A DNA stretch of 64,000 nt from Eubacteriales bacterium (lineage in GTDB: Bacteria > Bacillota > Clostridia > Lachnospirales > Lachnospiraceae), in assembly GCA_030536995.1 (NCBI GenBank), contig JAUNOY010000012.1, positions 16,832 to 80,831 on the forward strand, read 5' to 3'. Shown here piece by piece: positions 6,588 to 11,664 of the stretch. The position numbers were made by a program, and so were the translations under genes. How positions within the stretch are numbered: the first letter of the stretch is position 1; each line of letters starts with the position of its first letter. The notes below the pieces were generated by a model. It made no database searches. It was not told where the DNA came from and was given only the letters and a program-made list of their open reading frames with translations.

Positions 6588-7967
6588 ATGTATCAAATAG
6601 ACTTTCATAAACCGCTTCACATCCATTTTATCGGAATTGGCGGAATCAGTATGAGCGGTCTTGCAGAAATCCTGCTTGGCGAGAATTTCATGGTTTCCGG
6701 CTCTGATGCCAAAGAAAGTCCGCTCACCAAATCCCTCGAAAAGAAGGGTGCAAAAATTTATTACGGACAGCGCGCTTCCAATATTACAGACGAAGTAGAG
6801 GTTGTTGTCTACACAGCAGCTATCCACCCCGATAATCCGGAATATGCCTGCGCTGTTTCCAAAAATCTGCCAATGCTCACACGTGCGGAGCTTCTGGGCC
6901 AGATTATGCGCAACTATGAAACCCCCATCGCCATTGCAGGCACTCATGGCAAAACCACAACAACCTCTATGGTTTCCCATATTCTTCTCGAGGGCAAATG
7001 CGACCCCACCATCAGTGTCGGGGGAATTCTTCCTGCTATCGGCGGAAATATCCGTGTAGGTGAATCAGAAACTTTTGTCACCGAAGCCTGCGAATACACA
7101 AACAGCTTTTTAAGCTTTTTTCCAAAAATCAGTATTATCCTGAACATTGATGCCGACCATCTCGATTTCTTCAAAGACCTTGACGATATCCGCCTCTCTT
7201 TCCGCCGCTTCGCAGAACTTCTGCCTGCAGATGGAACTCTGATCATAAATGCGGATATTCCTGACTACGAGGAAATCACACACGAACTTCCATGCAACGT
7301 CATCACCTACGGAATTAACAGCCCGGCAGATTACACAGTCTCCAATATTGCGTATGACAAGTACGGCCGCGCCTCCTTTGATGTGCTAAGAGACAATATT
7401 AAAGTCGGAAGCTATTACCTGAAAGTTCCGGGACTCCATAATGTTTCCAATGCTCTGGCATCCGCAGCCCTCGGGCATCTTCTCGGGCTTGATGAAGAAA
7501 GCATTATTAAAGGTCTTGGAAGCTTCACAGGAACAGACCGCCGTTTCCAGTATAAGGGCGAAGTCGGCGGTGTGACCGTAATTGACGATTACGCGCACCA
7601 CCCTACAGAAATCGAAGCCACTTTAACTGCTTCACAAAATTATCCTCACAAAAAAATATGGTGCGTCTTCCAGCCTCATACATACACCCGTACCAAAGCT
7701 CTGCTCCCGGAATTTGCCCAGGCGCTTTCCCACGCAGACCATGTTGTTCTTGCCGATATTTATGCAGCAAGAGAAACTGATGACCTTGGAATCTCATCTG
7801 CCGATCTTCAAAAACTTATTGCAGAACTCGGCACTCCCTGCGAATACTTTGCAACCTTTGATGAGATTGAGAATTTTCTCCTTGAAAACTGCATCTCCGG
7901 AGACCTGCTCATCACTATGGGGGCCGGTGATGTCGTCAACATCGGAGAACATCTTTTAGGAAAATAA
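6588..7967 (+). CDS. murC: MurC, UDP-N-acetylmuramate--L-alanine ligase
   Basis: The 459-residue cytosolic ligase adds L-alanine to UDP-MurNAc with ATP, the first peptide step of peptidoglycan synthesis. The N-terminal Rossmann segment GIGGISMSGLAE (16-27) binds the UDP-sugar and GTHGKTTTT (118-126) is the Mur ligase P-loop. Further marks are EACEY, NIDADHLD and DDYAHHPTE. Length is normal for MurC. ATG at 6588 follows AAGGAGA. It is transcribed alone, ended by a strong terminator before the DnaA-box spacer; murG is 22 kb away. Confidence 0.96.
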   Translation: MYQIDFHKPLHIHFIGIGGISMSGLAEILLGENFMVSGSDAKESPLTKSLEKKGAKIYYGQRASNITDEVEVVVYTAAIHPDNPEYACAVSKNLPMLTRAELLGQIMRNYETPIAIAGTHGKTTTTSMVSHILLEGKCDPTISVGGILPAIGGNIRVGESETFVTEACEYTNSFLSFFPKISIILNIDADHLDFFKDLDDIRLSFRRFAELLPADGTLIINADIPDYEEITHELPCNVITYGINSPADYTVSNIAYDKYGRASFDVLRDNIKVGSYYLKVPGLHNVSNALASAALGHLLGLDEESIIKGLGSFTGTDRRFQYKGEVGGVTVIDDYAHHPTEIEATLTASQNYPHKKIWCVFQPHTYTRTKALLPEFAQALSHADHVVLADIYAARETDDLGISSADLQKLIAELGTPCEYFATFDEIENFLLENCISGDLLITMGAGDVVNIGEHLLGK

Positions 7968-7975
7968 AAACTTTT

Positions 7976-8029
7976 AACGGATCTGAACAAAGCCATGACG
8001 TACACCATGCGCTGTCAGATCCGTTTTTT
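7976..8029 (+). terminator. Intrinsic terminator after murC
   Basis: An 11-bp stem (7976-7986 with 8015-8025) with a 28-nt loop ends in a T-run (8024-8029). It separates murC from the DnaA-box region. Confidence 0.8.
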
Positions 8030-8049
8030 GATGTGGAAAACAGGTAGAT

Positions 8050-8317
8050 TTATACACGTTTTATCCACACCTTCAAAAGCCTTTATTTTCAAGGGCTTAC
8101 AAAAGTTATCCACATTATCCACAGCGTTATACACATTTAACTCGTGAAATCTCTGTGGATTCTGATGTGTATAATTCACTTAACATAATCTGACATTTTT
8201 CTACAACAGAATTTGCGTATTTCTTACATTCTTCTTACATTTACCGGTTTCCAATAATTTATGACGGTTTACGTTTTTCCACATTATCCACATTATCCAC
8301 ACAGGATTGTGGAATAA
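8050..8317. promoter_or_regulatory. Dense DnaA-box cluster upstream of helicase-loader genes
   Basis: Five perfect TTATCCACA boxes lie on the plus strand at 8061, 8106, 8115, 8284 and 8293. TTATACACA lies at 8127 (plus) and at 8166-8174 (minus). Near matches are TTATACACG (8050) and TTTTCCACA (8275). The 8106/8115 and 8284/8293 pairs are directly abutting 9-mers. About 100 bp of AT-rich, T-rich sequence separates the two groups. The consensus is that of the DnaA initiator. The spacer ends at the promoter of a tandem-DnaD gene and a DnaI-like loader gene, so DnaA control of their transcription, DnaA titration, or an origin-like element are the options. Confidence 0.85.
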
Positions 8318-8360
8318 TCCGACTAAGACAAAATCAACTATTCTCTTTTAAAAGGGGTTG

Positions 8361-8369
8361 TGCTATAAT
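8361..8369 (+). promoter_or_regulatory. Extended -10 promoter of the dnaD-dnaI-prs unit
   Basis: TGCTATAAT is a TGn-extended, perfect -10 (TATAAT at 8364-8369). The -35 region TTCTCT is poor, as is common with extended -10 promoters. It lies about 45 bp past the last DnaA box and about 48 bp before the GTG start, so DnaA bound upstream could affect it. Confidence 0.65.
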
Positions 8370-8416
8370 CCATGTAGTCTCAGTATAAGGAACTGGAATT
8401 TTAAAGAAAGTGAGCT

Positions 8417-9445
8417 GTGTTTCGAATGATTACTCTTCGAAATTCCTCCCCAACGGAGGTTACTGTTTTATCAAATTTATTTATTGACAACTATATGCCG
8501 AAAGCGAACGGCGAATTCGTCAAGGTTTACATCTATCTTCTCCGAACCCTCTCCTCCTGCGAAGAGCTCAGACTGGAGCAGATGGCAGACCGCCTTCTCT
8601 GTACAGAAAGAGATATTACCCGCGCCCTGAAATACTGGGAAGAAAAAGAACTGCTTTCACTGGAATGCAGCTCTCAGGGTGAACTTACCGGAATTCTTAT
8701 GAAGTCGCCATCTTCCGACTCCTCCTGCGCTCCTTTGCAGGAAACAGCACCTCCCGTGAAGACAACCTCTCTCACTGCAGACCGTGTGAAGGAACTGAAA
8801 CAGAACGAAGAAATCGTTCAGCTTCTTTATATAGCAGAACAATACCTTGGCAAAACTCTCACACCGGGCGAAATGAAAAAAATTCTGTTTTTCTACGATG
8901 AACTGAAGCTTTCCCCTGACCTAATCGAATATCTGATTGAATACAGTGTAAGCCGAGGGCGCAAAAGCATCCGTTACATCGAAACCGTGGCGATGGCATG
9001 GGCACAGGAAGGCATTACCAGTGTCGCAATGGCAAAAGAAGCCAATTCCCGCTATGCCAAAGAATATTATACCATCCTGAAAGCTATGGGAATCAGCAAC
9101 CGAAACCCTATCGATACCGAAGTTTCCTTTATAAACACATGGCTTCACGATTACGGATTTACTATGGATATCATTCAGGAAGCCTGCAGCCGGACCGTTC
9201 TCCAGACAGGACAGCCAAGTTTCCAATATGCAGATAAAATTCTCTCAGGATGGAAACATAAAAGTGTAAAGAATATAGAAGATATACGTCGCTTAGATGC
9301 CCAGCACAAGCAGCGAAAACTGGAAAAAAGTCGGCAGCAAAGCAGCGCCAGACAGCAAAAACCTTCCAATAATAACCGTTTCAATAATTTCCACCAGAGG
9401 GAATATGATTTCGATGAATATGAAAAAAAGCTGCTGAATCATTAA
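8417..9445 (+). CDS. dnaD: Tandem DnaD-domain replication protein
   Basis: This 342-residue protein acts, by family, in helicase loading during replication initiation or restart. Residues about 20-95 resemble a winged helix. Two DnaD domains follow (about 132-210 and 220-290), each ending in a Y-x-x-x-x-x-x-W signature (IRYIETVAMAW and FQYADKILSGW). The C-terminal tail is Lys/Gln/Ser-rich and ends in acidic, aromatic residues, as in DnaD tails that bind DNA. GTG at 8417 opens the frame; ATG at 8426 is an alternative, and the ribosome site is weak for both. It lies 44 bp before the DnaI-like loader gene and just after the DnaA-box cluster. Confidence 0.88.
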   Translation: MFRMITLRNSSPTEVTVLSNLFIDNYMPKANGEFVKVYIYLLRTLSSCEELRLEQMADRLLCTERDITRALKYWEEKELLSLECSSQGELTGILMKSPSSDSSCAPLQETAPPVKTTSLTADRVKELKQNEEIVQLLYIAEQYLGKTLTPGEMKKILFFYDELKLSPDLIEYLIEYSVSRGRKSIRYIETVAMAWAQEGITSVAMAKEANSRYAKEYYTILKAMGISNRNPIDTEVSFINTWLHDYGFTMDIIQEACSRTVLQTGQPSFQYADKILSGWKHKSVKNIEDIRRLDAQHKQRKLEKSRQQSSARQQKPSNNNRFNNFHQREYDFDEYEKKLLNH

Positions 9446-9489
9446 AGTATAACAAGCAGCAGGCAGCATAACAGAAAAGGAGTCAGCCT

Positions 9490-10476
9490 ATGCCTTTGCA
9501 AAATTTTCAGTATGATACTATCATGAGGGAATATAATAAGATACAGGCCAAAAATCGGCATCTTTTGGAAGTACGCACAAGAGAAGCCTATAACAAAATT
9601 CCCCGTCTCCGAGAAATAGATGAAGAAGTGGCCTCTTTAAGCGCTTCCAAAGCACGTGCTTTGTTGAGCGGAAGCAACGAAAGTCTCTCTGATCTAAGGG
9701 AATCCATAGCTCTTCTGGCACAGGAGCGTTCTGCTCTCCTTGCCTGCGGAGGTTATCCCGACAATTATCTGGAACTTCCCTATGACTGTTCTTTATGTCA
9801 GGATACCGGCTATGTAGGGAGCAAAAAATGCACCTGTTTTAAAAAAGCAGAGATAGAATTGCTCTATACACAGTCAAATTTGAAAGAAATTCTTAAAAAA
9901 GAGAACTTTGACCACTTTTCTTTTGATTACTATTCTGATACAATGAAGAACGAAGCAACAGGGCTCACCGAGCGACAGACTGCACGGCGCGCCTATGATA
10001 TAGCCAGAAGCTTTGTCAAAAATTTTGACACCTCCTTTGAGAATCTCTTTCTCTACGGGGATACGGGAGTTGGCAAAACATTTCTTTCCCACTGCATTGC
10101 CCATGAGCTTCTGGAATCTGCACATTGTGTTATGTATTTCTCTGCATTCGACCTTTTCGATCTCCTTGCAGGGTCTGCATTTTCCCGAAAGGAAGACACA
10201 AGCGCAGAGGAATTTGTTTTTGACAGCGATCTTCTGATTATTGACGACCTGGGAACTGAACTCACCAACAGTTTTGTCTCTTCCCAGTTGTTTTTGTGCA
10301 TTAATGAGAGGATTATGCGCAGAAAGCCAACAATTATTTCTACAAACCTGAAACTTGAAAACTTTTCGGAAACCTATTCCGAGAGAACTTTTTCCCGAAT
10401 CGCCAGCAATTACCATATGGTAAAATTAGTCGGGAAGGATATCCGAATACAGAAAATTTTTTTAGGAGGAAAATAA
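9490..10476 (+). CDS. dnaI: DnaI/DnaC-like replicative helicase loader ATPase
   Basis: The 328-residue AAA+ protein would load the replicative hexameric helicase. Residues 1-90 form a helical helicase-binding region. Cysteines 100, 103, 114 and 116 (CSLCQ...KCTC) look like a zinc site, as in Bacillus DnaI. Walker A is GDTGVGKT (190-197) and Walker B is LLIIDDLG (about 248-255), with sensor-like STNL and an arginine-rich SERTFSRI. ATG follows AAAAGGAG. Only 3 bp separate it from prs, whose ribosome site lies inside its 3' end. Confidence 0.92.
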   Translation: MPLQNFQYDTIMREYNKIQAKNRHLLEVRTREAYNKIPRLREIDEEVASLSASKARALLSGSNESLSDLRESIALLAQERSALLACGGYPDNYLELPYDCSLCQDTGYVGSKKCTCFKKAEIELLYTQSNLKEILKKENFDHFSFDYYSDTMKNEATGLTERQTARRAYDIARSFVKNFDTSFENLFLYGDTGVGKTFLSHCIAHELLESAHCVMYFSAFDLFDLLAGSAFSRKEDTSAEEFVFDSDLLIIDDLGTELTNSFVSSQLFLCINERIMRRKPTIISTNLKLENFSETYSERTFSRIASNYHMVKLVGKDIRIQKIFLGGK

Positions 10477-10479
10477 CGC

Positions 10480-11664
10480 ATGGCACAGGTAACTACAAAA
10501 GATTTAACTACACTCCCGGTTGGAAGACTTGGTCTGATACCATTAGTAAGCTGCAAGGATCTTGGTGACAAGGTAAACGACTGGCTTGTAAAGTGGCGTC
10601 ATGAACGTCAGCATAAAGAATTGGAATCCTTTGCGTTTGAAGGATATCAGCGAGATTCTTATGAAATCCAGGTTCAGAACGCCCGTTTCGGTTCCGGTGA
10701 AGCGAAATGCTCCATTTCCGAATCCGTTCGCGGCGACGATATCTATATCATGGTAGATGTATGCAACTACAGCATCACCTACTCCATCGGACAGTACACA
10801 AATCTGATGTCCCCTGATGACCATTTTCAGGATCTGAAACGTGTAATCGGCGCCATCAGCGGAAAGGCAAGAAGAATCAACGTAATCATGCCTTACCTCT
10901 ACGAGAGCCGCCAGAGCATTCGTCAGGGAAGAGAATCTCTTGACTGCGCTACCGCTCTTCAGGAACTGGTAAACATGGGTGTTGAGAACATCATTACTTT
11001 CGACGCACACGATGCACGTATTCAGAATGCCACACCTCTCCACGGCTTCGAAACTGTTCAGCCTTCCTATCAGTTTATCAAGGCTCTTCTCAAAAATGAA
11101 GAAGGTCTTCATATTGACAACGACCATTTTATGGTTGTCAGCCCTGATGAAGGAAGCATGAGCCGTGCCATTTATCTTGCAAATATTCTCGGCGTCGATA
11201 TGGGTATGTACTATAAACGTCTTGATTACTCCAAGCTGGTAAACGGACGTCATCCTATCGCAGCTTACGAGTTCCTTGGCCCTAACCTCAAAGGAAAGGA
11301 CGTTATGCTTGTAGATGATATGATTTCCTCAGGCTCTACCATCCTTAAAATCGCCTCTCTTCTGAAAGAAAGAGGAGCCGGCAGAATTTATATCTGCTCA
11401 ACTTTTGGTCTGTTTACAAACGGTCTGGAAAAATTCGATGAGGCACAGAAAAACGGCATATTTGACAAGCTCCTTACCACAAACCTGATTTATCAGGCTC
11501 CGGAGCTTCTTGCACGTGACTACTATATCACCTGTGATATGAGCAAATATATCGCTCTGATCATTGACACTCTGAACCACGACTTATCTGTCAGCCATCT
11601 TCTCAATCCTGTTGACAGAATTAAACGCTGCGTAAACAACTACATGGCACAGTATGAAAAATAA
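10480..11664 (+). CDS. prs: Divergent ribose-phosphate pyrophosphokinase
   Basis: The 394-residue product resembles PRPP synthetase but is about 75 residues longer than the usual form. It keeps FGSGEAKCSISESVRG (70-85; compare FSDGE...ESVRG), ESRQSIRQGRE where the family has ARQDRK, FDAHD in place of DLH, and the PRPP loop VDDMISSGST (278-287). The expected reaction is ATP plus ribose-5-phosphate to PRPP and AMP, feeding purine, pyrimidine, NAD and His synthesis. The altered ATP-binding segment means catalysis is inferred, not shown. It is last in the dnaD-dnaI-prs unit, closed by a perfect hairpin. Confidence 0.82.
   Translation: MAQVTTKDLTTLPVGRLGLIPLVSCKDLGDKVNDWLVKWRHERQHKELESFAFEGYQRDSYEIQVQNARFGSGEAKCSISESVRGDDIYIMVDVCNYSITYSIGQYTNLMSPDDHFQDLKRVIGAISGKARRINVIMPYLYESRQSIRQGRESLDCATALQELVNMGVENIITFDAHDARIQNATPLHGFETVQPSYQFIKALLKNEEGLHIDNDHFMVVSPDEGSMSRAIYLANILGVDMGMYYKRLDYSKLVNGRHPIAAYEFLGPNLKGKDVMLVDDMISSGSTILKIASLLKERGAGRIYICSTFGLFTNGLEKFDEAQKNGIFDKLLTTNLIYQAPELLARDYYITCDMSKYIALIIDTLNHDLSVSHLLNPVDRIKRCVNNYMAQYEK

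Follow-up and report, generated by a model that had tools for sequence, protein, structure and literature searches.

A conserved DnaA-box element with a twin cluster and a shared partner motif in Blautia and related Lachnospiraceae

The window, a 64,000-nucleotide stretch of one draft genome (genome G000, contig C30, positions 16832 to 80831) whose genus was taken as Blautia, included a run of four plus-strand genes in which a long spacer separated murC from a dnaD-like gene. The murC gene (6588 to 7967) was identified by matches to Pfam Mur_ligase, Mur_ligase_M, and Mur_ligase_C above the cut-off, and was followed on the same strand by a terminator-like hairpin and a T6 run (7976 to 8025; RNA folding of 7965 to 8030 gave -22.7 kcal/mol, z -5.45). 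The dnaD-like gene (8417 to 9445, plus strand), whose start codon is uncertain, encoded two DnaB_2 domains (Pfam PF07261, two stretches). It was followed by a gene for a helicase-loader ATPase (9490 to 10476, plus strand; Pfam IstB_IS21 and Bac_DnaA above the cut-off), which we take to be dnaI from its context. A prs-like gene with PRPP synthetase domains (10480 to 11664, plus strand; Pfam Pribosyltran_N, Pribosyltran, and Pribosyl_synth) started 3 bp after dnaI. The 394-amino-acid prs-like protein matched the N-terminal domain only in part (profile positions 25 to 117 of 117), and is presumably longer than usual PRPP synthetases. The murC-dnaD-dnaI-prs run (6588 to 11664) lay on the strand opposing the presumed replication direction, and GC skew and gene strands suggest that the dnaD unit opposes this direction in the window as well as in the relatives G001, G004, and G029.

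A dnaD promoter was predicted at 8341 to 8369 on the plus strand, consisting of a -35 element (TTCTCT), a 17-bp gap, and an extended -10 element (TGCTATAAT), with transcription predicted to start near 8376. This promoter match was conserved in relatives, and was not among the matches listed by a simple promoter scan of the window. It began 40 bp past the last perfect DnaA box of the cluster described below.

The span under study (8050 to 8317) contained seven perfect DnaA boxes within 241 bp. Five were exact TTATCCACA boxes on the plus strand (8061, 8106, 8115, 8284, and 8293), and two were exact TTATACACA boxes (8127 on the plus strand and 8166 on the minus strand). Near matches were present on the plus strand at 8050 (TTATACACG) and 8275 (TTTTCCACA), and a further TTTTCCACA near match on the minus strand at 8032 lay outside the span. 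All boxes of the original prediction were thus recovered. Its two abutting head-to-tail pairs were also real, and the right-hand one, together with the near match at 8275, formed three abutting 9-mers of which the first is degenerate.

These boxes were arranged in two modules. Module A was defined as a box followed by boxes at +9 and +21, and module B as an array of abutting 9-mers. Upstream of both, an outlying pair (8050 to 8069, plus strand) comprised the near match at 8050 and the box at 8061. The core of module A (8106 to 8135, plus strand) read TTATCCACA, TTATCCACA, GCG, and TTATACACA, head to tail. It was followed on the minus strand (8154 to 8174) by an inverted half-site (TGTGGA, 8154 to 8159) and an inverted box (TGTGTATAA on the plus strand, 8166 to 8174), both of which were conserved in the alignment described below. 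Next came TTAACATAA (8180 to 8188, plus strand), a member of a shared TTDACATAA element. A T-rich stretch (8189 to 8274) separated these features from module B (8275 to 8301, plus strand), which consisted of TTTTCCACA, TTATCCACA, and TTATCCACA. Boxes had been predicted on both sides of a T-rich stretch, and this was borne out, since 8136 to 8274 contained 42% T and 69% A+T, against 30% and 58% in the whole window.

From the TTATNCACA count of the draft genome, 0.017 perfect boxes were expected in 241 bp. The pattern TTATNCACA occurred 195 times across the 2,828,709-bp draft genome and 74 times when read backwards; in the window it occurred 15 times, a count that none of 100 shuffles reached (mean 2.55, sd 1.62). 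The Poisson probability of at least seven boxes in 241 bp was 7e-17, a value that serves as a guide only because the region was chosen post hoc. Local duplication of the 9-mer could yield abutting copies. The reading of the cluster as a functionless product of chance or duplication is almost certainly wrong in view of the Poisson value, and it was already contradicted by the retention of box positions and alignment columns across genera.

The original prediction could be compared directly with the same spacer in relatives, and it survived the comparison: at least four perfect boxes were found in 25 of the 29 closest-relative loci and in 55 of the 80 named dnaD loci, the latter being the best 80 of at least 518 confirmed loci, from Blautia and other Lachnospiraceae. 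When the host was included, four to seven perfect boxes were present in 26 of 30 spacers and none in four. The two sets overlap, as the 120 bp before dnaD were identical to those of a named locus in 22 of the 30. Among the best 80 of at least 518 loci, at least three boxes preceded dnaD in 57, and the number of perfect boxes per spacer was zero in 13, one in 5, two in 5, three in 2, four in 12, five in 25, six in 17, and seven in 1. In these best 80 of at least 518 loci, the spacers contained 10.9 boxes per kb and the remaining sequence 0.081. Where murC was recognised among the same best 80 of at least 518, 55 of 59 spacers of at least 250 bp had at least three boxes, as did none of 17 shorter ones; recognition of MurC relied solely on a short C-terminal motif, and its end was unrecognised in L018 and in four of the 80 named loci. 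The alignment and the motif counts for A-B intervals and promoter distances were based on 51 loci from the best 80 of at least 518. In this alignment, box columns averaged 1.75 bits and other columns 0.65 bits, and the T-rich stretch between the modules was poorly conserved.

Outside the family, 20 dnaD loci from other families of the order were sampled over 600 bp upstream, and at least three boxes were found in six, two in two, one in three, and none in nine. These 20 came from 23 matches, G047, G053, and G060 being omitted as fragments or for too little upstream sequence. Other orders of the class were represented by 27 loci, in which murC was unrecognised upstream; the 700 bp before dnaD contained no box in 25 and one box in two, with only 351 bp of upstream sequence available in one locus (L172). 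L175 was omitted because it duplicates G050. Within this sample, the site is confined to the order of the host, and is densest in Blautia and allied genera.

The internal geometry of the cluster was also retained. The exact A core (TTATCCACATTATCCACANNNTTATNCACA) was present as a single copy in each of 39 of the 64 genomes of the genus that were searched for exact cores, never as two, and the reversed control gave none. Among the best 80 of at least 518 loci, modules A and B were both found in 53, A without a recognisable B in four, and no A core in 23. For the 40 loci of this best-80 set with arrays of at least three 9-mers, module B started 164 to 169 bp from A in 32, and the distance in the eight outliers was 170 bp (one), 180 bp (four), 156 bp (two), and 144 bp (one). 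The 13 loci with two-box arrays ranged from 146 to 189 bp. Helical phasing of A and B was considered as proof of looping and rejected; a shift of the reference by one box (9 bp) explains much of the approximately 10-bp steps suggested by perfect pairs, eight of 40 loci fell outside 164 to 169 bp, and in a 38-locus set the best-fitting period was closer to 12 than to 10.5, so that phasing is a hint at most.

An extended -10 element was detected in 45 of the 51 aligned loci (among the best 80 of at least 518). The distance from the end of module B to this element was 52 to 56 bp in 23 of the 45 and 62 to 65 bp in 12, the two narrow ranges together covering 35 of 45. Distances of 44, 74 to 83, or 105 to 271 bp in the other ten speak against strict promoter contact. 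In L054, the promoter has moved to 118 bp from B and the A-B distance is still 168 bp; in L094 and L105, the promoter lies 151 and 271 bp from B, and the A-B distance is 186 bp in both. Spacing within the cluster tends to hold where the promoter distance has changed greatly.

Paired boxes at most 30 bp apart were found at five places in the host genome, namely on each side of dnaA, in the murC-dnaD spacer, within a gene on contig C9 (called sensor-kinase-like by eye), and on contig C28. The last of these is a twin cluster (G000:C28:51740-51769; L036:5741-5770) located between convergent genes for V-ATPase subunit D, which belongs to a V-ATPase operon, and an NlpC/P60 protein. Its core consists of a box followed by boxes at +12 and +21, the mirror order of module A (12/9 instead of 9/12). 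The twin core was present as a single copy in each of 30 of the 64 genus genomes, with none in the control. In 12 relatives picked for having the twin core, the V-ATPase subunit D motif was found in 11 and the NlpC motif in nine, both oriented as in the host. Both cores were present in 28 of the 64 genomes, A only in 11, the twin only in two, and neither in 23; ancestry, gaps in the assemblies, and the requirement for exact matches confound this co-occurrence (Fisher p 4e-7). In the near-closed genomes of G001, G004, and G029, the dnaD cluster was 336, 709, and 447 kb from dnaA and the twin 226, 515, and 318 kb, which places both sites 6 to 20% of the contig away from dnaA. Four loci of the same genus (L020, L030, L031, and L032, from genomes G002, G018, G027, and G003) had boxless murC-dnaD spacers of 36 to 93 bp, as judged by motif, and their genomes also lacked an exact core of either site.

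At both sites, the core was followed by an inverted TGTGG and then by ACATAA, mostly in the form TTDACATAA. ACATAA was found in the examined slot in 49 of 52 A-B intervals (the window and 51 loci among the best 80 of at least 518), and such a strand-specific match is expected by chance in 0.0085 of these slots. It lay 75 to 77 bp from the start of the A core in 45 intervals and 64 to 65 bp in four. The TGTGG-ACATAA distance in the A-B intervals was 27 to 29 bp in 44, 16 to 17 bp in four, and 34 bp in one; in the twin it was 17 bp in all 13 cases. The two registers are therefore about 11 bp, or about one helical turn, apart. The A-B values of 154 to 156 bp all belonged to L108, L111, L122, and L130, in which the TGTGG-ACATAA distance was 11 to 12 bp shorter, and the two shortenings may be one event.

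A strict composite pattern, built from the spacer site and the twin themselves, matched only these two sites in the host genome. Of 119 genomes from other genera of the family, 10 contained a single match each, and the control gave none. Seven of the ten lay in murC-dnaD spacers (MurC of L195 was named by eye), one by V-ATPase subunit D, one in a galactokinase/glycoside-hydrolase-36 spacer (L188), and one, in a different genus from L188, in the rnpA-dnaA interval (L197). Since 109 of the 119 genomes had no composite, the exact form is uncommon beyond Blautia. The idea that ACATAA is foreign to origins proved not fully true, as the composite occurs upstream of dnaA in L197; within the genus, one of seven oriC regions contained it in a different register (L185), and looser ACATAA-type matches lay upstream of dnaA in three of seven.

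The cluster resembles the bipartite oriC of Firmicutes in having DnaA boxes around an A+T-rich stretch, and together with its position beside helicase-loading genes this might suggest a second origin, either active or vestigial. Such an identity is very unlikely. Unlike a bipartite oriC, the cluster is not beside dnaA and dnaN: dnaA was located on contig C3, with its own boxes on both sides. GC skew showed no switch: it was below zero in each of the 32 2-kb bins that make up the window, as well as in five 4-kb bins of the first 20 kb of contig C30. In the three near-closed relatives, the cluster is 336 to 709 kb from dnaA. On these grounds a replication origin was rejected, in line with the original view that the locus has no dnaA and is no active bidirectional origin. 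A low-power scan for TAG/TAA (DnaA-trio) runs gave a longest run of one triplet at the cluster and two at the oriC of the host.

Among known systems, the excerpts of the literature consulted for Bacillus subtilis describe clusters of this 9-mer outside oriC, where DnaA binds and activates or represses genes (PMC4447404). The clusters named there (ywcI/vpr, gcp/ydiF, trmE, ywlC, yqeG/sda, and yydA) are likewise groups of TTATNCACA outside oriC, some of them at DnaA-regulated promoters, and the gcp/ydiF cluster lies downstream of both neighbours, as the twin does here; within those excerpts, none of the eight named in vivo regions is at dnaD, dnaB, or dnaI (PMC4447404). The present site is like them in having several boxes clustered outside oriC, with seven in 241 bp and dnaA on another contig, and its boxes lie near a conserved promoter. 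It differs from them in its fixed spacing and in a second motif common to two sites. By analogy, its predicted mode of action is most like that of the Bacillus clusters. According to the excerpted text of PMC5742627, Escherichia coli DARS1 and DARS2 are also two unlinked sites with a three-box core and an accessory region, but DARS box I is inverted relative to boxes II and III, and both DARS sites share one spacing; the three core boxes here are all oriented alike, with an inverted half-site after them, and the two sites have mirror-image spacings (9/12 and 12/9). Box orientation and mirrored spacings therefore do not fit the DARS definition, and membership was rejected. E. coli datA is another non-oriC DnaA-box cluster, which in the same excerpts is near oriC, lowers active DnaA, and needs IHF between its boxes (PMC5742627), whereas one of the present sites is tied to a promoter.

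On balance, the cluster is probably a DnaA site specific to this lineage, through which transcription of dnaD-dnaI responds to DnaA and which, together with the twin, holds or modifies DnaA. DnaA would bind module A, through three head-to-tail boxes and inverted sites, and module B, usually through three abutting boxes, and the two assemblies could form a joint, perhaps looped complex together with a second factor at TTDACATAA. As module B is about 75 to 100 bp upstream of the predicted dnaD-dnaI-prs start and does not overlap the promoter, whose -35 element is weak, DnaA probably modulates this promoter from upstream, thereby tying the DnaA level to the supply of helicase loader. In addition, the complex and the twin may retain or modify DnaA and thereby influence the timing of initiation. 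Activation of dnaD-dnaI seems somewhat more likely than repression, for no other reason than the upstream position of module B and the weak -35 element. The control of dnaD-dnaI by DnaA that was originally proposed is partly supported, in that it agrees with the promoter being conserved and commonly lying at set distances from module B; the twin and the ACATAA element were not part of that proposal. Against this favored reading are the 23 of 80 loci without an A core and the four more without a recognisable B (best 80 of at least 518), and the finding of at least three boxes in only six of 20 loci from other families, as well as the weak conservation of the T-rich stretch.

The cluster might instead be mainly a DnaA-handling site, acting by titration or by a change of ATP/ADP state like datA or DARS, with its place before dnaD being incidental. 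The twin, whose core, half-site, and ACATAA are of the same type, is flanked by convergent 3' ends, and cluster spacing was kept where the promoter was displaced, as in L054; both features suggest that the site may handle DnaA besides regulating a promoter. The position of both sites at 6 to 20% of the contig from dnaA in three near-closed genomes points the same way, and in excerpted reports, removal of six DnaA-box clusters from B. subtilis led to early initiation (PMC5295017, PMC13220808). We nevertheless regard a mainly DnaA-handling role as rather unlikely, because the site has kept its place before dnaD in many genera, 35 of 45 loci (among the best 80 of at least 518) have a promoter distance within one of two narrow ranges, and seven of the ten other-genus composite matches are in murC-dnaD spacers. 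In B. subtilis, DnaD inhibits cooperative DnaA binding (PMC5295017).

No YabA was detected above the Pfam family cut-off in any of 61 genomes, although weak sub-threshold matches occurred in five; the B. subtilis and L. lactis controls were positive. Other control of DnaA is therefore likely in this group, and the type of initiation control described for Bacillus may be absent. Tentatively, Blautia and related Lachnospiraceae, in which no YabA was detected above the cut-off, could possess a two-site DnaA-control system made of two unlinked composites. Each would combine a three-box core, an inverted half-site, and a TTDACATAA site for a second, as yet undescribed factor, the registers at the two sites differing by about one helical turn; the composite match at one oriC of the genus makes this reading slightly less likely. 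One composite would lie in the helicase-loader promoter and the other in a convergent spacer, and the two would jointly set the availability or state of DnaA, coupled to loader supply.

Among the papers listed by literature searches, none described a DnaA-box cluster at dnaD or dealt with DnaA and oriC in Blautia, and control of replication initiation seems little described in Lachnospirales, which are major gut residents. The cluster and its twin suggest a way of tuning when chromosome copying starts. With two precisely conserved sites, one of them before helicase-loader genes, the question is open to direct tests, and TTDACATAA points to a candidate partner factor.

One further motif was enriched between modules A and B. 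TGTCGAA, which we take to be the 0A box (Spo0A), was found in 19 of 52 A-B intervals, where shuffles gave 0.9, and also in some twin flanks (L039 to L050); it was absent from the A-B interval of the window itself. This enrichment may belong to the ACATAA block, Spo0A being a lead only, and Spo0A_C was found in 35 of 37 genomes.
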